From: a virus | IMG/VR virus record: IMGVR_UViG_3300028025_005718 | Location: 1-29,227 of that record | DNA: 29,227 nucleotides | Strand: one strand, 5' to 3' | Part shown: piece by piece, positions 2,241-26,538 of the stretch | Layout of the letters: each line of letters opens with the position of its first letter | Position numbering within the stretch: the first letter of the stretch is position 1 | The notes under the pieces: generated by a model | Databases searched by the model: none | What the model saw: the letters and a program-made list of their open reading frames with translations, nothing else | Told to the model about the DNA's origin: nothing | Position numbers and translations under genes: made by a program

Positions 2241-2262
2241 GTTTAGTATAAATATACTAAAC
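2241..2262 (-). promoter_or_regulatory. Perfect palindrome containing a TATTTATA promoter-like site
   Basis: On the minus strand GTTTAGTATA, TT, TATACTAAAC forms a 22-bp inverted repeat with 10-bp arms. Its centre carries TATTTATA (2247-2254), the motif seen ahead of several other genes here. It overlaps the queE stop codon (2257-2259) and lies 18 nt before the 45-aa gene. There is no U-run after it, so an operator/promoter fits better than a terminator, though an RNA hairpin is also possible. Confidence 0.45.
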
Positions 2263-3030
2263 TTCCCTCTTGTCACCGTATGCAATAATATGATCTCGTC
2301 CTGAAAAATTATATGAATGTGCTGTACAGTAATCTAATACTATTGGGTACATCTTAATTAATTCTTCACGAGTATCACCAGCAGGCATAATCCATGTTTT
2401 ATGTTTTGGTATATTAAAGCGTTTTCTGAAAGCCTCAATCTCATACATTAATTCAGGTGTACCATCCCATACTGGTTTGAAGTGGTAGTTCTTATGGTAT
2501 GCTAATAATTGACGAATTGCATCATATTTTTCTCTATACTTGTTATGTTGATCAATCATTTTCTGATCTACAATTTTACCTTGTGGTGTTTCAACACCAA
2601 TTACTGGAATTGAATTAGAGAATTTTGGTGATAATGAAATAACATCAATACGATGATCAGTAATTAACGGATGAGATCCTTCAGTTTCGATAGTTACAAT
2701 ACCTTTTTTATCATGTAATGCTTTGAATAAATTAATAATTTCATTACACATTTCAGGATGCATTGTTGGTGAACCACCTGTTAACATTAAATGACTAATA
2801 TCCCAATTATCCGAAAAGAATTGCTTAATGTCGTTTAACGTATATTTACCTTTTTCTGGATGGATTGATGTATACCATGAATCACACCACCCACCTTCAC
2901 CAAAATAACATCTATGCGTACATCCTGTTGTACGAACAATGATATGTGGTTTACCAGCTAATGATCCTTCAGTTTGAACGCAACGATATACTTCAATTAC
3001 CGGTTGATTTTTAGTATAATCTAGTGCCAT
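2257..3030 (-). CDS. queE: 7-carboxy-7-deazaguanine synthase (radical SAM), QueE
   Basis: Converts 6-carboxytetrahydropterin to 7-carboxy-7-deazaguanine (CDG), the ring-forming step of 7-deazaguanine synthesis, using an Fe-S cluster and S-adenosylmethionine. Seen in 257 aa: the radical-SAM cysteines Cys37, Cys41 and Cys49 in GCTHRCYFGEGGWCDSWY, TGGSP (85-89), IETEG (114-118), SLSPKFSN (132-139) and a C-terminal FSGRDHIIAYGD. The cysteine spacing is C-x3-C-x7-C, wider than the C-x3-C-x2-C of textbook radical-SAM enzymes. QueE enzymes are known to vary here. The start overlaps the 77-aa gene by 20 nt. It stands with queC, queD and dpdA, so the product probably goes into phage DNA rather than tRNA. 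Confidence 0.93.
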   Translation of the reverse strand: MALDYTKNQPVIEVYRCVQTEGSLAGKPHIIVRTTGCTHRCYFGEGGWCDSWYTSIHPEKGKYTLNDIKQFFSDNWDISHLMLTGGSPTMHPEMCNEIINLFKALHDKKGIVTIETEGSHPLITDHRIDVISLSPKFSNSIPVIGVETPQGKIVDQKMIDQHNKYREKYDAIRQLLAYHKNYHFKPVWDGTPELMYEIEAFRKRFNIPKHKTWIMPAGDTREELIKMYPIVLDYCTAHSYNFSGRDHIIAYGDKREV

Positions 3031-3244
3031 TTTGTTTTTCTTTTAATTTTTGACGTTTAGCTAATTTTTTATCTACAACTACTTCTGCATTAATATCTAC
3101 CTCAACGGTTTTCTTATTTGCATCTCGTACTTTAGTTTTCCATTCGGCTTTAGGAGCAAATGTCCATCCATGTACTTTTACTTTTAGATCAGCATCTGCA
3201 TCTGATACTCTACGGATTTCACCGTCTTTTTTGATACACTTCAT
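3011..3244 (-). CDS. Small basic protein, unknown function, in the deazaguanine cluster
   Basis: 77 aa: MKCIKKDGEIRRVSDADAD, then VHGWTFAPKAEWK, then a lysine-rich tail (KKLAKRQKLKEKQ). The pattern of a short strand, R-V-S-D, a helix and G-W-x-x-x-P-K-x-E-W-K is one I associate with many phage genomes, without known function. The ATG overlaps the TGA of the 46-aa gene upstream as ATGA, and its own end overlaps queE by 20 nt, so it is coupled into the queC-queE mRNA. Whether it takes part in deazaguanine synthesis is not shown. Confidence 0.8.
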   Translation of the reverse strand: MKCIKKDGEIRRVSDADADLKVKVHGWTFAPKAEWKTKVRDANKKTVEVDINAEVVVDKKLAKRQKLKEKQNGTRLY

Positions 3245-3381
3245 ATTTTAAATTTTAATTTGATTAATTGTTGAATATAAGTAAGAAACTGCACATCACC
3301 AGCGAGTACAGACAAAATGTTAGGATGGGCGTCTCCACACCCACCTAACAAATGACTAATAATGTGTCTGATTTCTTCCAT
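3241..3381 (-). CDS. 46-aa protein tightly coupled between queC and the 77-aa gene
   Basis: Found by reading the queC downstream gap. ATG at 3381-3379 shares one base with the queC stop (TAATG), and its TGA at 3243-3241 overlaps the next start as ATGA. The frame is open for 46 codons: MEEIRHIISHLLGGCGD, AHPNILSVLAGDVQFLT, YIQQLIKLKFKI. An exact fit to both neighbours, with the same junction types used at ssb-uvsX (TAATG) and dpdA-queD (ATGA), is hard to explain by chance. The predicted protein is largely helical with one cysteine in a GGCGD turn. No family recognised. A TTTCTTACTTA element lies inside its 3' part. Confidence 0.7.
   Translation of the reverse strand: MEEIRHIISHLLGGCGDAHPNILSVLAGDVQFLTYIQQLIKLKFKI
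3278..3288 (-). promoter_or_regulatory. TTTCTTACTTA, near copy of the gene-end element
   Basis: Minus strand TTTCTTACTTA, one mismatch to TTTCTTAATTA, 33 nt before the 77-aa gene start and inside the 46-aa coding sequence. Weaker than the five exact copies because it is coding. Confidence 0.25.
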
Positions 3382-4244
3382 TATTCGGCGTGCTCAGCTA
3401 ATACTTGTTCAACGTGTGATTTAGCAACTTCCCAACTAACTGGGCCTGTTTCATCAGCATATGCAACCGGATCTTTAAGATTTAATTTAATAAACGCTTC
3501 AATACGCTCTACAGATGATGCTGATTTATAATCAGAATACCATACTCCATCATGTTGGATTGGTTTATAACTTGTATTAGTACGTTTATATATTTCTGGG
3601 AAATTTAAATTTATTAATCCTGAACATTTTAATCCATCTACGATTATATCAAATTTAGTGTTTTCTAAGTATGGAGTATAAACAGATACTAATTCTGAAT
3701 CCCAATTACCAATTTTAAATGCTTCAAAATCAGCATCGCGGAATTCTTGGCGACAATCAGGATAAATAGCATGATCACCAGCATGAATACCCATTGCAAT
3801 TACTACTGGTTGTTTATCTCCTTTAGTTGCAATTGATAATGCTACTGCTTGAATTAATGAAGCAAAAATTTTATTACGATTAGGTACAACAGTTTCTTTC
3901 ATGTTGTCTTGTTCGTAATGTCCTTCAGGTACATCATCCCCCCCTGTAACTAATGATGAATGAAGTAAATTTTGCAATCCATCTAATTTAATAATTTGAA
4001 AGTTTACCTTAGGATAGATTTCACCAAATTCATTAGATTCTGCACCTGCATGATAATTTCGAGCTGGGTTTGAGTTGATATATTCAACTAATGATGCGGC
4101 ACGCTCTAATTCTACTTTGTGTTTTTGACCATAATCAAATCCTAATGCTGTAACTTCATAGCCATTAGCTAATAAATGAAGTAATAATGTTGAGGAGTCC
4201 ATTCCTCCGGATAATGATAAAACTGCTTTTTTTGTACTAGACAT
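3381..4244 (-). CDS. queC: 7-cyano-7-deazaguanine (preQ0) synthase-like, QueC
   Basis: ATP-dependent enzyme family that turns CDG plus ammonia into preQ0 through an amide intermediate (ADG). Seen in 287 aa: PP-loop SGGMDS (12-17), GFDYGQKHKVE (35-45), the VVPNRNKIF block (119-127) and GIHAGDHAIYPDCRQEF (152-168). The region that should carry the four zinc-binding cysteines (E. coli pattern TCY...CGxCxxC) reads TNTSYKPIQHDGVWYSDYKS (222-241) and has none of them; Ser or Tyr stand there. The flanking family pattern (S-Y-K ... S-x-x-x-E-R-I-E-A-F) is kept, so this looks like a variant enzyme, not a broken gene. It may finish at preQ0 or stop at ADG. Stop overlaps the 46-aa gene start. Confidence 0.9.
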   Translation of the reverse strand: MSSTKKAVLSLSGGMDSSTLLLHLLANGYEVTALGFDYGQKHKVELERAASLVEYINSNPARNYHAGAESNEFGEIYPKVNFQIIKLDGLQNLLHSSLVTGGDDVPEGHYEQDNMKETVVPNRNKIFASLIQAVALSIATKGDKQPVVIAMGIHAGDHAIYPDCRQEFRDADFEAFKIGNWDSELVSVYTPYLENTKFDIIVDGLKCSGLINLNFPEIYKRTNTSYKPIQHDGVWYSDYKSASSVERIEAFIKLNLKDPVAYADETGPVSWEVAKSHVEQVLAEHAE

Positions 4245-4278
4245 AAAATTATAAAATATAAGATTGGAACGTATTAAT

Positions 4279-4503
4279 TTATTTAGCGGTTAGTTCCGAT
4301 AACCCCTTTACTACTATACTTGAAAAATCCTCACTATACAGGTGTATCCCGTTTGGATATTTTTCAGTTGGTTCAGTTTTTGAATATGGAATCTTCATTG
4401 CTTTAGCGAAAATATTAACTAATTTACATTCTCGTGGAGTTAATGGTTTAATTCCATGTTTAGTAACATACTGATTAATTGTACTCGTTTTTTGATTTTT
4501 CAT
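4279..4503 (-). CDS. Small hypothetical protein between queD and queC
   Basis: 74 aa, not recognised. The N-terminal half is basic and probably helical (TSTINQYVTKHGIKPLTPRE, then LVNIFAKAMKIPYSK); the C-terminal half holds NGIHLYSEDFSSIVVKGLSE. The short helix-turn-helix-like start could bind nucleic acid, but that is weak. The leader before ATG is AAATAAAAAGTT, the same type as several neighbours. A TTTCTTAATTA element and a TTTACAATGTAAA palindrome fill the 49-nt gap upstream, so this gene may begin its own transcript with queC behind it. Confidence 0.7.
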   Translation of the reverse strand: MKNQKTSTINQYVTKHGIKPLTPRECKLVNIFAKAMKIPYSKTEPTEKYPNGIHLYSEDFSSIVVKGLSELTAK

Positions 4504-4526
4504 AACTTTTTATTTGATTTAAACTG

Positions 4527-4539
4527 TTTACAATGTAAA
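4527..4539 (-). promoter_or_regulatory. Short palindrome TTTACAATGTAAA in the queD-downstream gap
   Basis: Perfect 6-bp arms around one base, 24 nt before the 74-aa gene start. It sits next to the TTTCTTAATTA element and a TATATTTA sequence. It could be an operator half-pair or chance in AT-rich DNA. Confidence 0.25.
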
Positions 4540-4541
4540 TA

Positions 4542-4552
4542 TAATTAAGAAA
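4542..4552 (-). promoter_or_regulatory. TTTCTTAATTA gene-end element (copy 1)
   Basis: Minus strand reads TTTCTTAATTA directly after the queD stop codon, followed by TATTTAC. It is one of five exact 10-mer copies (TTCTTAATTA), all on the minus strand and all at gene ends. Candidate promoter or mRNA-processing signal for the 74-aa gene and queC. Confidence 0.45.
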
Positions 4553-5032
4553 TTAAATAGGCATGTATTCCTCTTCGTATGAAGCTGAATTACGGCCATT
4601 TTCGAATACTTCTACTTTAGCTACTCTAACTCTGTAATGTGTTTCGTCTTGAACGAATTCATTGATCTTTTGAAATAAATACTCAGCAAAACGTTCAGCA
4701 CCAACGTAAGGTAAAATACGTAATTGAATAATTCCATCATCCTCCATTTGTTTAAATTGTTCTAAATATGGATCGTCTTCGGAAATAATTGTAGTATGAT
4801 CTAATAAATAATCGAACCATTGTTTTGGATTCATTCCATCAATATTACCGTTAGCACGTTTCATACCACCGAAATCCCATACCCAATTGCGTTCGTCTAA
4901 ATCTCCTTCAAAATCTACTTTAAAGGATATAGCATATCCATGTAAGAACCTACAGTGGGTTCCTTCTGCTCTCCATTGTCTAAATACAGTAGAGAATCCA
5001 TCAAATAATTTTGATGATTTGAATGTAATCAT
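4553..5032 (-). CDS. queD: 6-carboxytetrahydropterin synthase-like, QueD
   Basis: QueD turns dihydroneopterin triphosphate into 6-carboxytetrahydropterin, the substrate of QueE. Seen in 159 aa: FSTVFRQWRAEGTHCRFLHG (13-32), matching the family's F-x-A-x-H ... C-x-x-L-H-G-H block with nucleophile candidate Cys27; DFGGMK (53-58); LDHT (77-80); GAERFAEY (111-118); and VEVFENGRNSASYE near the end. Usual zinc ligands differ: the first His is Phe17 and HGH is HGY (His31, Tyr33); His26 may substitute. Its ATG overlaps the dpdA stop as ATGA, so the two are translationally coupled. An altered but family-typical T-fold protein; activity on the same substrate is inferred from context. Confidence 0.88.
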   Translation of the reverse strand: MITFKSSKLFDGFSTVFRQWRAEGTHCRFLHGYAISFKVDFEGDLDERNWVWDFGGMKRANGNIDGMNPKQWFDYLLDHTTIISEDDPYLEQFKQMEDDGIIQLRILPYVGAERFAEYLFQKINEFVQDETHYRVRVAKVEVFENGRNSASYEEEYMPI

Positions 5033-5823
5033 GATAAAAGTGTTCTAAAATGTTTAACGTTATATAATACATCAGAAATTTGTTGGTCAGATAACTTCTG
5101 ATCAAAATATGTTTCTAACTTTTCTTTAGGTTTATCAAGTAATACTTTATCTGGGTATTTACCGTGTTTTAAACCATAAATAACTGGATTAGATGTATCG
5201 ATTGTTTTAATGAAATCGTATTCTTTACCTTTATAATTAGAGAATTCATTAGGTAATGTAGCACCTAATAAGTGATGGTGAATCGTTTTATTAAATCCAT
5301 TTAATGATGGTAGCATATTAACAAATTTAATACGTCCAGTCATTAAACTTAATAACTCGTTTTGGTGTTTATATAATTCCTTAAAATAAACTCCAGCATG
5401 ATTTAATGCAATATGTGTATAACCTAACTCAGCAAATTTGCTATATGTAAGCATTGCATCCGATACTGTTTTAGCTTGTACTACTGCCATTAAATTAGTT
5501 GTAGATGGTATTTTATCTACATAATAATCAATCCATTTCTTAGCGTTTTTAACTGTGGTTTGAGGATCATTCCATGCATCAGGAACGATGAATATACTTG
5601 GCTTAATATCATTGATTTTCTCGAGTAAATCTTCGATTGTATGTGATACTCCTTCAAATAAACCATTATCCATGATAATTAAATCACCACGTTCAGATGC
5701 GTTTTTAAAAAATTCATAGTACTGTTTATTTTCTAATAAATGAGGTAAACAATAATGATAGTCATTAAATTTTAATGACTCATTTAATAGATCTAATGGT
5801 ACTTCGTGTGAAATAAGGGCCAT
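5029..5823 (-). CDS. dpdA: DpdA-like transglycosylase for 7-deazaguanine insertion into DNA
   Basis: DpdA proteins are relatives of tRNA-guanine transglycosylase that exchange guanine in DNA for a 7-deazaguanine base. Seen in 264 aa: LIIMDNGLFEG (48-58; Asp52 at the TGT DSGGFQ position), FIVPDAWND (78-86), MAVVQAKTVSDAM (112-124, Gln116), THIALNH (136-142), HHLLGATLPNEFSNY (183-197) and IKTIDTSNPVIYG (205-217, Asp209 at the TGT nucleophile position). It is shorter than bacterial TGT (about 370 aa) and lacks that enzyme's zinc cysteines, as is usual for short phage DpdA proteins. It overlaps queD by ATGA. Substrate DNA rather than tRNA is inferred from size and context. Confidence 0.85.
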   Translation of the reverse strand: MALISHEVPLDLLNESLKFNDYHYCLPHLLENKQYYEFFKNASERGDLIIMDNGLFEGVSHTIEDLLEKINDIKPSIFIVPDAWNDPQTTVKNAKKWIDYYVDKIPSTTNLMAVVQAKTVSDAMLTYSKFAELGYTHIALNHAGVYFKELYKHQNELLSLMTGRIKFVNMLPSLNGFNKTIHHHLLGATLPNEFSNYKGKEYDFIKTIDTSNPVIYGLKHGKYPDKVLLDKPKEKLETYFDQKLSDQQISDVLYNVKHFRTLLS

Positions 5824-5825
5824 AA

Positions 5826-6320
5826 CTATTTATTATATTTTTTTAAGTATTCATAGAATTCTAAAGTAGTACCATCGAATTCTCCTGCTAATTCATTAAT
5901 TAAATCTATACGAGACAACTTATCAGGTCCCAAATGTCTAAAATCTCCTGCTAGTTCATTTACTAATTCTGACCATATTTTTGGTTCTTCTTTATCGAAT
6001 GCGTTCATTAATTTATGATAACGATCGTATTGTTGCTTTTCAATTACTTCTCTACGATTCATCCAAGCTTCATGAGATGGGTATTTAGAACGTTCAGTTT
6101 TTAATCGATCGTCTAATAACCACAACTCATAAAACGCTTGTTGTCTGTAATCAGATATTTCAAAATCTCCGTTTTTAATTCGTGTTTCTAGTGGAGTATA
6201 TTTATGCATTGGTTGACGTATTTTAAAACGTCTCCAATAATAAAATAAGTTAAACTTCGCTGGTTGGAACTTCTGTTCCACTATCGTCTGAATGTTCTTC
6301 GGGTAACGGGATTTTTGCAT
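5826..6320 (-). CDS. Hypothetical protein (164 aa), start uncertain
   Basis: Not recognised. Basic, aromatic N-terminal part (FNLFYYWRRFKIRQPMHKYT), then mostly charged helices (LLDDRLKTERSKYPSHEAWM; VIEKQQYDRYHKLMNAFDKE) and two similar segments LVNELAGDF and LINELAGEF. With ATG at 6320 the gene overlaps the 68-aa gene by 71 nt in another frame. A second ATG at residue 38 (6209, MHKYTPLETRIKNGDF) would remove the overlap and leave 127 aa. The sequence just before Met38 looks protein-like, so I keep the longer form with doubt. It ends 2 nt before the dpdA start and so precedes it on the same mRNA. Confidence 0.65.
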   Translation of the reverse strand: MQKSRYPKNIQTIVEQKFQPAKFNLFYYWRRFKIRQPMHKYTPLETRIKNGDFEISDYRQQAFYELWLLDDRLKTERSKYPSHEAWMNRREVIEKQQYDRYHKLMNAFDKEEPKIWSELVNELAGDFRHLGPDKLSRIDLINELAGEFDGTTLEFYEYLKKYNK

Positions 6321-6456
6321 TATTTAAAATAGTTATAACTTTATCAGTAATATCATTTATTGTTGATGCTTTCTGAGTTTCTGGAAGTTGATTAATATCT
6401 ATTTTTTCAACTTCATCTTTTAGTGTAAGTAATTCTTTTAATAAGTCTTCTAACAT
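6250..6456 (-). CDS. Small acidic hypothetical protein
   Basis: 68 aa. A helical N-terminal half (MLEDLLKELLTLKDEVEKID) is followed by INDITDKVITILNNAKIPLP and an acidic tail (EEHSDDSGTEVPTSEV). Composition suggests a small soluble protein, perhaps a partner of the next gene product, with which its coding sequence overlaps by up to 71 nt. The leader is the TTTCTTAATTA element followed by AATTTATT and then ATG. No function assigned. Confidence 0.65.
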   Translation of the reverse strand: MLEDLLKELLTLKDEVEKIDINQLPETQKASTINDITDKVITILNNAKIPLPEEHSDDSGTEVPTSEV

Positions 6457-6464
6457 AATAAATT

Positions 6465-6475
6465 TAATTAAGAAA
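6465..6475 (-). promoter_or_regulatory. TTTCTTAATTA gene-end element (copy 2)
   Basis: Minus strand TTTCTTAATTA begins 2 nt after the nrdA stop codon and ends 8 nt before the 68-aa start. Same orientation and setting as the other copies. The short distance to the start codon argues against a simple promoter for that gene unless its transcript is nearly leaderless. Confidence 0.45.
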
Positions 6476-6477
6476 TT

Positions 6478-8202
6478 TTATCCTTCGCAAGCTACACAAG
6501 CTGCAGTTCTATCTAAATTATCACCTCTTAGTACAGATTCTGTACGTAGGTAATATAATGTTTTAATACCAGCTTTGTGGGCTTCTTTATGTACTTCTGA
6601 CATCCAACGTGGTGTATCATTTGGATCAAAACATAAATTTAATGATACAGTTTGATCAACATATTTTTGACGAATACCAGCTTGACGTACAATTTCTAAT
6701 TGATTAATTTCTTTAAATGTACGAAATACTTCCTTTTCTTCGTTTGATAAAATATGATCTTCTACACCATAAACTGAACCTTGATCTTTAGCAATTCTGT
6801 CCCATACTGATGGGATATTAAATCCTTTAGACTCGAGTAATTGTTCTAATATTGGATTCTTTTTAATGAATACACCTTTAGCCGTTTTTAAATTATAGAT
6901 ATTAGCAGGTAACGGCTCAATTGATGGAGAAACACCACCTGAAATATGAGCATTCGATACTGTAGGTGCGATTGCCATTCTATGTGAATGTCTTACACCT
7001 GTACCTTTACACCATTCTGGTTCGCCATATTCTTTAGCCATATCTTGAGATGCTTTTAAAGATTCAGAATCAATAAAGCTAAATATTTCACGTGTATAAG
7101 CATTTGCTTGGATCCCAACAAATGGAATGCCTTTTGATTGTAAGAATGTATGCCATCCTAAAGCACCAATACCAATTGCTCTACCTTTCATTGCTGAACG
7201 TACTGTATTTTCCATAAAGCGGATATTTTTAGCACGATCAATAAATTCTTGTAATACACCTTCTAAGAACCAAGTCATTAATTCAGGAACTGACATACCA
7301 TTTTCGAAACGATAATTTTTCCATTCATCAAAACGAGCTAAATTTAATGACGATAAACAACAAATAAATGAATGTAATGGATCTGTATACAATACAATCT
7401 CAGAACATATATTAGTCATTGTAACTTCTAAGTTTAATTTCTTGTACCCTTCAGGATTTGCTTTATTTACATTATCTTTAAACATAATGTATGGTTCTCC
7501 TGTTTCTAAACGAGTACGTAAAATCTCACCCCAAATCTTTAAAGCATGTTGATCACGATCTTCTACTTTTTGCATAAAATTATCATCAACAACTACACAA
7601 TGATGTGTATTTAAACATTGACGATTAACATCACCTTTTGGACGTCTCATCATTAAAAATTCTTCAATATCTGGATGATTAATATCTAGATTAAATGAAG
7701 CCGCACCTCTACGAACCGAACCTTGGTTAGTAGCTAAGATAGTAGAATCATAAATTTTAGCCCAAGGAATAATACCTTCACTTACACCATTATCTTTAAT
7801 TCTAGCACCACGTCCTCTAATACGAGATAATGACATACCAACACCACCACCTTGAGACGATAAACGCATTAATTCAGAGTTTGCTGATGCAATACCTTCT
7901 ACTGAATCATCAACATCGATACCATAACATGAAATTGGTAATCCACGTTCTGTACCCATGTTTGATAATACAGGAGAGGCTAAACACAACCAATTCTTAA
8001 CCATTGCTTCATAGAAAAATGGTTGAAGATCTTTACGACGTAACCTACGAGCAGCAGATTTAGACACACGTTTAAATCCTTCGAATACGTTTTCATCTGA
8101 TAGTAAGTAACCTTTAGAGATCATGCTTACTGCAATATCATCCATCCATTCGGGATAATCTTTTCCTACAACCCATTTACGGGTATCAACTGTAATGCTC
8201 AT
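6478..8202 (-). CDS. nrdA: Ribonucleotide reductase, class I large subunit
   Basis: Reduces ribonucleotides to deoxyribonucleotides with NrdB. All catalytic residues are visible in 574 aa: LPISCYG (Cys92, reducing cysteine), TNICSEI (Asn264, Cys266 thiyl radical, Glu268), the second reducing cysteine in FICCLSSLNL (Cys281/282), radical-transfer tyrosines TLYYLRT (Tyr550, Tyr551) and C-terminal shuttle cysteines CVACEG (569, 572). It is far shorter than E. coli NrdA (761 aa). There is no N-terminal ATP-cone region, so dATP feedback inhibition by that domain is probably absent. The order thioredoxin-nrdB-nrdA with 1-16 nt gaps makes a compact operon. Confidence 0.96.
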   Translation of the reverse strand: MSITVDTRKWVVGKDYPEWMDDIAVSMISKGYLLSDENVFEGFKRVSKSAARRLRRKDLQPFFYEAMVKNWLCLASPVLSNMGTERGLPISCYGIDVDDSVEGIASANSELMRLSSQGGGVGMSLSRIRGRGARIKDNGVSEGIIPWAKIYDSTILATNQGSVRRGAASFNLDINHPDIEEFLMMRRPKGDVNRQCLNTHHCVVVDDNFMQKVEDRDQHALKIWGEILRTRLETGEPYIMFKDNVNKANPEGYKKLNLEVTMTNICSEIVLYTDPLHSFICCLSSLNLARFDEWKNYRFENGMSVPELMTWFLEGVLQEFIDRAKNIRFMENTVRSAMKGRAIGIGALGWHTFLQSKGIPFVGIQANAYTREIFSFIDSESLKASQDMAKEYGEPEWCKGTGVRHSHRMAIAPTVSNAHISGGVSPSIEPLPANIYNLKTAKGVFIKKNPILEQLLESKGFNIPSVWDRIAKDQGSVYGVEDHILSNEEKEVFRTFKEINQLEIVRQAGIRQKYVDQTVSLNLCFDPNDTPRWMSEVHKEAHKAGIKTLYYLRTESVLRGDNLDRTAACVACEG

Positions 8203-8218
8203 TTTTTATTATTTTATA

Positions 8219-9166
8219 TTATAAATCCGACCAATCTGCTGTCGACTTTGAGTATGCACTAGGTCGTTGTGCAAAAAAGTCCTGTTGTTCCACTCCTGAT
8301 GTAATCTGACCAAACCAAGCGATTTCGTCTAATAATTTTTCATTTACATCGTATAATGGTTTATAACTTAGTTCTACCATTTTTTCATTAGCGCGAGCAC
8401 GAATGAAATTCTTTAATTGCTCCTTAGTTAAATTTTCTAAGTCGCCCATTTCAAATACTTTATTGATAAATGCAAATTCTAATTCTACTGAAATAGCACA
8501 TGCTGTTTTGATACGTTCCTGTAAATCGATTGTATTTAATTCAGGACGTTCTTCTAACAATTGTCTAAATAACCAACATCCAGCTTTTGAATGTAGTGAT
8601 TCATCTCTAACAGACCACGCAACAATTTGTCCCATTCCTTTCATTAAATTTCTCATTTGGAATGACATCAAAATAGCAAATGATGAAAATAAATTAACAC
8701 CTTCAGTAAATGCTGAAAATATAGCTAATGATTGTGCTATTTCATCCATTGTTCCTGATTGTACTTGCTGTAATCTTTCGATTTTATTACGAGCTTCTTC
8801 ATCATCCATAAATGCTGCAAAATCATCTAAACCTAGTGATTCGTTTAGCAATGAATATGCTTCAGCATGGATAGATTCAAATGAACCGAATGTAACGGCC
8901 ATTGATTGGATTTCTGGTTTTGGAAACCATTTAGATACATTAGATGACCAATAGTCTTCTACGTGTGTTTCGGTCTGAGCAAATGATTTTAAGATTTGAC
9001 CGATTAAATTCTTTTCGGATTCAGTCAATTTTAATTTAAAATCATTAACATCAGCAGCTAATGTAACTTCTTCAGGTAACCAATGCACACGTTGTTGTGC
9101 TTTTAAAAATTCGTGGGCTTGGTCGTATTCAAACGGCTTATAAAATAAACGCTTATCGGTGATCAT
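8219..9166 (-). CDS. nrdB: Ribonucleotide reductase, class I small subunit
   Basis: Ferritin-like subunit that holds the di-metal centre and tyrosyl radical for NrdA. Seen in 315 aa: THVEDYW (67-73, Asp71 as first ligand candidate), FESIHAEAYS (96-105) with Glu97, His100 and the radical Tyr104, FTEGVN (Glu155) and RDESLH (187-192, Glu189, His192). The C-terminal peptide STADWSDL resembles the tail that docks on NrdA. The retained tyrosine points to a normal tyrosyl-radical type. It is followed by nrdA after 16 nt and preceded by thioredoxin with a 1-nt gap. Plus-strand open frames inside it are shadows. Confidence 0.96.
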   Translation of the reverse strand: MITDKRLFYKPFEYDQAHEFLKAQQRVHWLPEEVTLAADVNDFKLKLTESEKNLIGQILKSFAQTETHVEDYWSSNVSKWFPKPEIQSMAVTFGSFESIHAEAYSLLNESLGLDDFAAFMDDEEARNKIERLQQVQSGTMDEIAQSLAIFSAFTEGVNLFSSFAILMSFQMRNLMKGMGQIVAWSVRDESLHSKAGCWLFRQLLEERPELNTIDLQERIKTACAISVELEFAFINKVFEMGDLENLTKEQLKNFIRARANEKMVELSYKPLYDVNEKLLDEIAWFGQITSGVEQQDFFAQRPSAYSKSTADWSDL

Positions 9167-9167
9167 A

Positions 9168-9428
9168 TTATTTAAACGAGTTAATTGTTGAAGTTAATGA
9201 TGGTTTTTGTTGCATTCCAACAAGACGTTTTACTTCCTGTCCATCTTTTTCAATTACGATAGTAGGAACACCTCTTACATTGTATTTAATTGCTAATGCT
9301 GATTCAGCATCAACATCAACGTCTTGAAATGAAACACCAGATACTTCTGATTTAACTTGATCAAATATAGGGGCAAGCTGCTTGCATGGGCCGCACCAAG
9401 AAGCAGAAAATTTAAGTACTTTTAACAT
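9168..9428 (-). CDS. trxA: Thioredoxin
   Basis: 86-aa thioredoxin fold with the redox motif WCGPC (Cys12, Cys15) and the cis-proline motif RGVPT (Pro55). The C-terminal strand is DGQEVKRLVG. It is slightly shorter than bacterial thioredoxin (about 105 aa). Placed one nucleotide before nrdB, it most likely re-reduces the ribonucleotide reductase, the usual role of phage thioredoxin or glutaredoxin. Its 57-nt upstream gap holds both recurring elements of this window (TTCTTAATTA at the helicase end and TATTTATA), suggesting that a new transcript for trx-nrdB-nrdA starts here. Confidence 0.95.
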   Translation of the reverse strand: MLKVLKFSASWCGPCKQLAPIFDQVKSEVSGVSFQDVDVDAESALAIKYNVRGVPTIVIEKDGQEVKRLVGMQQKPSLTSTINSFK

Positions 9429-24924: not shown

Positions 24925-24949
24925 AAAGCACCTATTTTTTAGGTGCCTT
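24925..24949 (-). terminator. Intrinsic terminator at the end of the chaperone extension gene
   Basis: Minus strand AAGGCACCTA, loop of A residues, TAGGTGC, then TTTTT. The stem is 8 bp plus a G-U and A-U extension, and the 99-aa gene's stop codon (TAG) lies at the base of the loop. The next gene has its own TATTTATA site just downstream. Confidence 0.65.
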
Positions 24950-25231
24950 ATATGAATATGTAGGAGTTTGTTTAGAGGGGGTTATATTAGGTCTAGATAT
25001 TTCTTTAGCATTACCTTTATTTTTTAACTGATTTTGTTGTTTTTCAGCTTCTTCGGCTTGTTTATCGTAATATTCTTTTAGTTTATTAAAAGTAAATCTA
25101 CGAAGCCATAAAGGCATATTATAAACTGTTTCCCAATCATATCCTCCATTACCATGAAATACAATTTCATGAATTTGAGAAAATATTTGTACTCTATACT
25201 CCGGAGTCAGGCCAAAAAAAGTTAATACCAA
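24932..25231 (-). CDS. Tail assembly chaperone extension (gp51-like), likely made by frameshift
   Basis: 99 codons in the +1 frame relative to the gp26-like gene, which it overlaps by 38 nt. As a free protein it would need the TTG at 25231 with no proper leader. The two frames share a T7 run (25214-25220) and both encode Phe-Phe there, so a +1 (or -2) slip would join residues 1-248 of the upstream protein to GLTPEYRVQIFSQIHEIVFH, giving about 341 aa. The segment has GGYDWETVYNMPLWLRRFTF and a charged helix (KLKEYYDKQAEEAEKQQNQL), like the C-terminal parts of tail chaperones that precede tape measure genes. A one-base homopolymer error would produce the same picture. Confidence 0.75.
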   Translation of the reverse strand: MVLTFFGLTPEYRVQIFSQIHEIVFHGNGGYDWETVYNMPLWLRRFTFNKLKEYYDKQAEEAEKQQNQLKNKGNAKEISRPNITPSKQTPTYSYKAPKK

Positions 25232-25958
25232 TTGGTACCGTTACACCCTCCTGTGTGTACCCATCTTTTTCTACAGTTATATCTAAATTAATATCGGGCA
25301 TTAATTTGGCATAATACTCGCGGAACGCACGTGAATCTTGTGCAGTAAGATAATTATCGACAAACTCGCGTATGTCTTTAGTTTCGCGTGATCCCTCAAC
25401 AGAAGTAATCATATACTTTAAACGAGTAGTTAAATCAAATGAATCATTTGGATATAATTTCTTTAATCCATTAATTTCTTGCGTGATTTTCTTTTCGTCA
25501 GCTCCTGTTAAAAATTTAAATGTAATGTTGTTTTTGGATTGGGGTAAAGTAAACATAAATTCATTTTTTCCTGAGGTAAATAATGATTGGTCTACTTCTT
25601 TTTCATTTAATGTTGTTAAATCAATTGTATAATCATCTTCAGATCTAGTAGATGTATTATAAAATCTAATAGGATAATCTTTACCGTATCCTAAAATACG
25701 AGCAGCAATTAAAATTGCATTTTTATCACCAACAATTAAATCATCAAAATTAATTGGAGTAACAACTAATGCTTGTAGCAATTTATCAATAGCTGTTCCA
25801 TTTTTGATATAATTCATGTTAGTTAATATATCTTCATGTTTTGCGGACATGTAAGACATTTCAATTTCTCCTTTAGATAATGGGTTTTCTGCTGGATATA
25901 ATAAACCTTTTGAAGGGAGGGTAATGGTTTCAGTAGGTAATTTGAATTTTTGTTCCAT
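25194..25958 (-). CDS. T4 gp26-like baseplate/tail assembly protein
   Basis: 254 aa. Opens with ETITLPSKGLLYPAENPLSK, the sequence I associate with the T4 baseplate gp26 family, then IEMSYMSAKHEDILTNMNYI, DLIVGDKNAILIAARILGYG and DYTIDLTTLNEKEVDQ. It ends GINFFWPDSGV, a natural-looking C-terminus, just after the slippery T7 run. In T4, genes 26 and 51 are adjacent and needed for hub assembly. Here the gp26-like gene sits directly before the tape measure gene with an overlapping second frame, the hallmark arrangement of tail chaperones (lambda G/GT type). It probably binds the tape measure protein during tail assembly. Confidence 0.85.
   Translation of the reverse strand: MEQKFKLPTETITLPSKGLLYPAENPLSKGEIEMSYMSAKHEDILTNMNYIKNGTAIDKLLQALVVTPINFDDLIVGDKNAILIAARILGYGKDYPIRFYNTSTRSEDDYTIDLTTLNEKEVDQSLFTSGKNEFMFTLPQSKNNITFKFLTGADEKKITQEINGLKKLYPNDSFDLTTRLKYMITSVEGSRETKDIREFVDNYLTAQDSRAFREYYAKLMPDINLDITVEKDGYTQEGVTVPIGINFFWPDSGV
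25214..25220 (-). other. Candidate programmed frameshift site (T7 run)
   Basis: Minus strand AAC TTT TTT TGG in the gp26-like frame; the extension frame reads ACT TTT TTT GGC. Peptidyl-tRNA-Phe can re-pair with UUU after a +1 or a -2 move. The -1 frame meets TGA two codons later (TTG GCC TGA), so -1 would be unproductive. Confidence 0.65.
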
Positions 25959-26049: not shown

Positions 26050-26538
26050 TTAGTAGTTCAATACGCAATAATCCATTGCAATTGTTAATGAAATAGAGGC
26101 AGCAGATTCACCTTGTGACCAATCATAATCACCAAAGTTAGCAGATTTAGCATAAGCACCTTTGATAATCCATTCTGAAACAACATCACCAACTGGTCCT
26201 AATACGTTTAATACTAAATCTTTCTTGTAAAAATCTGAATAACCATCACGACCTGTTACTGATTCGTGTGCTAAACGAGCCCATTCCATTACTGCTTGCG
26301 CACCTGATGGAGCGATTGGATCGTAAAGTTCTAATGTCATATCTTGCCATCTTACTTTACCTTTAATTTTACGGTAAACGTTGATATGATCTAATACGAT
26401 TTCATTAGCTTCAAATTGTGGGGAAGCAGCTTTTTTAATTAAGTAAGCTGGGATACCGTCTATGTACATTATGAATCTGTTTTGAACCTTAGGTTCAAAA
26501 GCGGTAAACATAATCTCTGATGCGTCTAATACTGCCAT
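26050..26538 (-). CDS. Tail tube protein, gp19-like
   Basis: 162 aa. It polymerises into the inner tube of the contractile tail. Seen: EPKVQNRFIMYIDGIPAYLI (15-34), FEANEIVLDHINVYRKIKGK (42-61), WQDMTLELYDPIAPSGAQAV, then DLVLNVLGPVGDVVSEWIIK and a C-terminal SISLTIAMDYCVLNY. The N-R-F-x-M-Y-I-D-G start and the late x-I-x-x-D-Y-C strand are typical of the T4 gp19 tube family. It lies 46 nt after the sheath gene with its own TATTTATA site and is followed by a strong terminator, as expected for a highly expressed structural gene. Confidence 0.93.
   Translation of the reverse strand: MAVLDASEIMFTAFEPKVQNRFIMYIDGIPAYLIKKAASPQFEANEIVLDHINVYRKIKGKVRWQDMTLELYDPIAPSGAQAVMEWARLAHESVTGRDGYSDFYKKDLVLNVLGPVGDVVSEWIIKGAYAKSANFGDYDWSQGESAASISLTIAMDYCVLNY

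Follow-up and report, generated by a model that had tools for sequence, protein, structure and literature searches.

Probable +1 programmed ribosomal frameshifting in the gp26-type tail assembly chaperone genes of a phage clade

The window analyzed here (the whole 29,227-nt stretch of the virus record IMGVR_UViG_3300028025_005718) contains a gp26-type gene (gene A) whose C-terminal extension (B) is encoded in the +1 frame. Comparison with related sequences indicates that a +1 programmed ribosomal frameshift very probably produces a long tail assembly chaperone, the counterpart of T4 gp51. This reading is favored because B is at +1 relative to A in 311 of 325 relatives, the presumed shift codon is TTT or CTT in all 257 distinct junctions, and 147 of these 257 offer no start codon for B.

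We infer that most ribosomes would complete gene A and thus produce the short chaperone, TAC-N, while a fraction would stall with tRNA-Phe on the second UUU and UGG waiting in the A site. The stalled ribosomes would slip one base forward and re-pair on UUU, GGC becoming the next codon. The slip would add a 93-residue C-terminal domain and give the long chaperone TAC-NC (counterpart of lambda gpGT and T4 gp51). Together, TAC-N and TAC-NC would cover the tape measure protein and recruit the subunits of the tail tube to it.

Organization of the chaperone locus

The features of the locus, all on the minus strand, are as follows.
25194..25958 (-): gene A, gp26-type tail assembly chaperone (TAC-N), zero-frame product of 254 aa; PF12322 9.5e-8, over cut-off; phrog_150 1.4e-14; AlphaFold2 pLDDT 91.7
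24932..25213 (-): B, putative TAC-C extension, 93 aa, +1 frame, GLTPEYR...; own start not needed; predicted structure of three helices plus a tail of low confidence
25212..25220 (-): shift site TTT TTT TGG, TTTTTTTGG; proposed P site, second TTT (25217-25215); proposed A site, TGG (25214-25212)
25221..25223 (-): guard codon AAC, placing a non-T base ahead of the T run and avoiding the -1 heptamer T TTT TTT
25247..25251 (-): GGAGG, 34 nt ahead of the shift codon
22456..24894 (-): candidate tape measure protein, 812 aa, directly downstream of B; assigned by position and length, its counterpart in phage immuto being annotated as tail tape measure
26050..26538 (-): tail tube protein, upstream of gene A; phrog_4542 5e-23

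The gene order is sheath, tail tube, A, B and the long ORF read as tape measure, for which family profile searches gave no match of its own. As in gene pairs of the gpG/gpGT kind, a short gene is located just before the tape measure gene and its extension is in another frame. The minus-strand 3' end of gene A reads AAC TTT TTT TGG CCT GAC TCC GGA GTA TAG, with the T run at 25220-25214 and the stop codon at 25196-25194. Past the second TTT, the +1 frame encodes GLTPEYRVQI, while the -1 frame gives L-A-stop, in agreement with the preliminary description, according to which a -1 slip meets a stop after two codons. The B frame is open from just past TAA 25243-25241, and the listed 99-codon ORF starts at TTG 25231.

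Relatives and the frame relation

A tblastn search with A and B against viral contigs and phage records found 161 loci including the window. Both A and B matches were present in 158 of them (L009, L040 and L076 were dropped for lacking both), and in all 158, representing 126 distinct junctions, B was at +1 relative to A. Profile-style scans and more phage records increased the set to 331 records, of which six without an A stop in the record were dropped. The iterated B profile placed B at -1 in only two of the 325 relatives (L164 and L168) and left 12 unplaced, the others being at +1. After identical junctions were merged, 270 distinct ones were obtained, including 257 with B at +1, the window counted among them. 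Of the 11 distinct junctions without a B profile match, six (L258, L259, L262, L264, L272 and L273) were open at +1 as judged by eye, four (L163, L166, L169 and L171) continue at -1, and L170 has an overlapping ATG. No relatives were confirmed in a scan with a further alignment (A4), and a protein query (P0002) against genome contigs, used in the search for a host, found no relative.

The +1 set includes Bacillus phage SP-15, Listeria phage LIS04 and Streptococcus phage GXN1. The T7 run is also present in independent assemblies and in Microcystis phage Mel-JY01, and the isolate Flavobacterium phage immuto keeps the frame relation with TTTCTTTGG at the site; the T7 run of the window is therefore not a sequencing error, and no six-T variant with one continuous ORF was seen among the relatives. 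Thus, the overlap of a gp26-like frame and a second frame at T7, described earlier from the window only, is confirmed both there and in its relatives, where the site and both frames are kept. The same description proposed that the chaperone genes preceding the tape measure gene undergo programmed frameshifting, and this proposal gains support from the conserved site, the two frames and the missing start.

Letter rules at the shift site

In the 257 distinct +1 junctions, the presumed P-site codon is TTT in 251 cases and CTT in six (TTT-CTT sites). TTC is never found at this position, whereas it accounts for 531 of the 2222 Phe codons that precede the site in these genes. The CTT-T variants correspond to the RF2 shift codon (RECODE summary, as presented in PMC10885494) and were therefore counted in favor of +1. 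The zero-frame codon that follows is TGG in 214 of the 257 junctions and TAC in 35. Conservation of TGG CCT GAC is largely forced by the two overlapping frames and was therefore not counted as evidence.

The -1 heptamer T TTT TTT is absent from all 257 junctions; the base ahead of the run is T in four, all of them TTC-TTT sites. With the codon use of each gene as the reference, 107.3 of 162 two-fold guard codons would be expected to end in T, and none does. The same holds after thinning of the set to 113 clusters (expected 47.3 of 82, observed 0).

The preliminary description had left two possible slips, +1 or -2. A -2 slip of the ribosome on the T run, of the type known from Mu-like phages, would add one extra Phe, and by re-pairing it fits the T7 sites, including that of the window, equally well. 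In 12 of the 257 junctions, however, TTC precedes TTT, and L160 has TTT-CTA; in our judgment, these sites allow good re-pairing at +1 but poor re-pairing at -2. Since these 13 loci re-pair well only by +1, the +1 slip is favored and the -2 slip appears improbable. Slippage of the RNA polymerase on the T run, with one U dropped or two added in part of the mRNA, is less probable still. It agrees with the T7 run found in most loci, but 19 of the 257 loci have no T run longer than four and still keep the frame relation, which is evidence against it; moreover, a preceding T never lengthens the runs, although slippage would gain from it.

A +1 ribosomal slip has precedents in RF2 (prfB) and Listeria phage PSA, where the P-site tRNA slips forward at CUU-U and CCC-U, respectively (for PSA, the relevant section of PMC5009743). 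The window sequence TTT T likewise offers a P-site codon that can re-pair one base forward, with U as the following base. In contrast to RF2 and PSA, the codon waiting at the sites studied here is a sense codon, UGG or UAC, rather than a stop, and there is no Shine-Dalgarno (SD) sequence about 3 nt upstream; the window has TGG in the A site and GGAGG 34 nt upstream. It also differs from the T4-like -1 site, T TTT TTY, in its +1 frame and in its preceding base, C. No classical stimulator was recognized, which counts against the +1 reading: SD-like 4-mers within about 14 nt were detected in 55 of the 257 junctions, and downstream RNA folding is only mildly stronger than in shuffled sequences (mean z -0.65 and -0.96; z < -2 in 13 of 60).

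The GGAGG element

GGAGG occurs within 60 nt ahead of the shift codon in 205 of the 257 distinct +1 junctions, compared with 15.2 expected for the same protein and codon use. In 148 of those 205 loci it is a single copy at exactly -34. Elsewhere in gene A it was found 59 times in a total of 171540 nt. It is present in 72 loci of the set thinned to 113 clusters and in 35 of the 69 sites of the tree set, and is absent from all six SP-15/GXN1-like loci; it therefore marks only part of the +1 clade. By established spacing, a position 34 nt upstream does not lie within the shifting ribosome. In the -1 set, GGAGG is usually 10 nt before the run (in 45 of 65, its first base is 15 nt ahead of the run), which is the classical distance for -1 frameshifting.

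The start of gene A lacks an SD sequence in 138 of 150 loci. A role of GGAGG as a start signal for B was rejected, as no start codon is found at a fixed spacing; by our reading, the zero-frame codon 8 nt downstream of GGAGG mostly encodes Ile or Val. Pairing with CCTCC was also rejected (no case among 151 on either the downstream or the upstream side). The consensus fold exceeds column shuffles in strength (-7.7 compared with -2.6, sd 1.8), but it is formed through invariant bases, and no covariation was seen in it.

A rather unlikely reading is that GGAGG 34 nt upstream could represent a new type of cis signal, acting over a long range to set or time the +1 shift, in phages without SD sequences at start codons. 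Phage-encoded bS21 (PF01165, over cut-off) was found in five of the 16 records searched, namely, those of L147, L159, L160, L221 and L223; in the records examined, there was no concordance between bS21 and GGAGG presence. In Bacteroidia ribosomes, bS21 hides the anti-SD, as outlined in PMC9976891. If the hosts are Bacteroidia, a special ribosome state could read GGAGG, with phage bS21 as a possible modulator.

Coding nature and start of the extension

The extension evolves as a protein, as had been supposed from its reading frame in the window. In 88 independent pairs, substitutions in B beyond the A stop at codon positions 1, 2 and 3 numbered 464, 225 and 1058, and stops numbered 0 in the B frame versus 895 and 2346 in the other two frames. 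B is predicted to form three helices and a tail, and the predicted structure had no match in PDB at E <= 0.001.

The suggestion that B has no credible start also stood: the sole in-frame candidate in the window is TTG 25231, and in 147 of the 257 distinct loci no ATG, GTG or TTG follows the upstream B-frame stop before the first post-shift codon is reached. Translation of B as a separate gene, through an unusual start or reinitiation, is the least probable alternative: although TTG 25231 and the ATG, GTG or TTG available in 110 of the 257 loci, together with the overlapping ATG of a phage of the T4-like clade, would allow it, it is opposed by the 147 loci with none of these codons and by the few open B codons ahead of the first post-shift codon (only three in 35 loci and only five in 40), and it leaves unexplained why the shift codon is never TTC. 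The phage with the overlapping ATG is Pseudomonas phage Cygsa01 (L170, 3803-3982), in which the extension starts at an ATG overlapping the gp26 stop and may be expressed by translational coupling instead of slippage.

Products of the locus and T4 gp26/gp51

The gene A product belongs to the gp26 family (PF12322, 32.4 bits, curated cut-off 24.5). The joined A+B product scored 58.8 bits with phrog_150, to residue 281, compared with 55.2 bits, to residue 234, for the short form. The AlphaFold2 model of the gene A product matches predicted gp26-type proteins such as that of SP-15. Residues 1-100 show modest similarity to the HK97 and YqbN folds; the three best hits in a second comparison were the solved structures 3klu, 3fgx and 2ob9 (Z 6.2, 5.8 and 5.3), the last being the HK97 tail assembly chaperone. 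The Foldseek E value of the chaperone-fold match is 0.59, and a Z of about 6 can reflect a common arrangement. A PDB sequence search gave nothing useful. The better phrog_150 score of the joined product supports the +1 frameshift, as may the modest fold match to the HK97 chaperone. The most plausible identities are TAC-N for A and TAC-NC for A+B.

T4 gp26 (short) and gp51 (long) are related, and both contain PF12322. T4 gp51 consists of the PF12322 domain and phrog_634, the hub assembly catalyst family, which is also matched by the cyanophage extensions. Three of 52 members of the +1 clade showed a weak match of B with phrog_634. Directly, T4 gp51 matched the B profile weakly (E 0.005 in a 3-sequence search); BLASTP between B and gp51 failed and hhalign found nothing, while the bridge via phrog_634 worked. 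The link of gp26/gp51 to the scheme of frameshifted chaperones thus holds, but Vladimirov et al. (2022) had reportedly proposed it already. The difference is that T4 has two divergent genes and no frameshift.

Direction of the shift in T4-related phages

In the cyanophage-like set, all 59 distinct junctions are open at -1 and not at +1, and most have T TTT TTC. Cyanophage and T4-like gp26 genes with -1 shifts share with the window the gene, the shift position and a homologous extension (L168); they differ in that the +1 shift uses V TTT TTT T (V, not T). In a tree built by a quick method from 102 gp26-type proteins, with long branches and a root placed arbitrarily, 76 +1 rows are set apart from 23 -1 rows and the direction changes twice. 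One is on the T4/cyanophage side, and the other involves three jumbo-phage rows (XacN1, RAS14 and LR756511) within the +1 side. A minimum of two changes is required by branches with good support.

Frameshifting is thus retained in a single chaperone family although the ribosome is shifted by -1 in some members and by +1 in others, and the difference follows a letter rule: T precedes TTT-TTY at most -1 sites and never precedes TTT-TTT at +1 sites. As the rule is simple, the grammar of the site is testable by single changes.

Comparison with known systems

Vladimirov, Gautam and Davidson (2022) reportedly identified genes 26 and 51 as the T4 chaperones and frameshifting in several T4-like groups, so these two points are already known. 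New are the +1 direction, the direction changes in the tree, the avoidance of T-TTT-TTT and the GGAGG usually found 34 nt upstream. No report of the +1 clade was found in open-licence papers. The poly-T signals of Vladimirov et al. are cited as -1 in a passage of PMC12846349, and G-T frameshifting is characterized as widespread except in T4 in the corresponding part of PMC5009743. By description, not by sequence, the locus resembles lambda gpG/gpGT, a short and a frameshifted long chaperone before the tape measure gene, although the lambda shift is -1 (PMC5009743, lambda section). The haloarchaeal myovirus HSTV-2 is likened by description as well, its tail chaperone frameshift being very likely +1 (PMC5009743, where it treats this virus).

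The junctions compared here make up an extensive natural collection of +1 sites at which a sense codon occupies the A site; predictors perform poorly on such sites, as indicated by the portion of PMC10885494 devoted to PRFect. The long chaperone is absent or truncated in the annotations of many phages; those of immuto, SP-15 and LIS04 contain a stub or nothing for the extension.

Additional observations

Vibrio phage K369 and two Ackermannviridae (L413, L416 and L417) retain an extension at -1, but near the end of their gp26-type genes a short run, ATTTTC or CTTTTC, takes the place of T TTT TTC. In the window, a terminator-like hairpin (24949-24925, minus strand) overlaps the end of B just ahead of the tape measure ORF, and a second one (26028-25998) is located between the tail tube gene and gene A. 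The region 2257-9428 contains what we take, by eye, to be a run of 7-deazaguanine (queuosine-type) genes followed by ribonucleotide reductase and thioredoxin genes.
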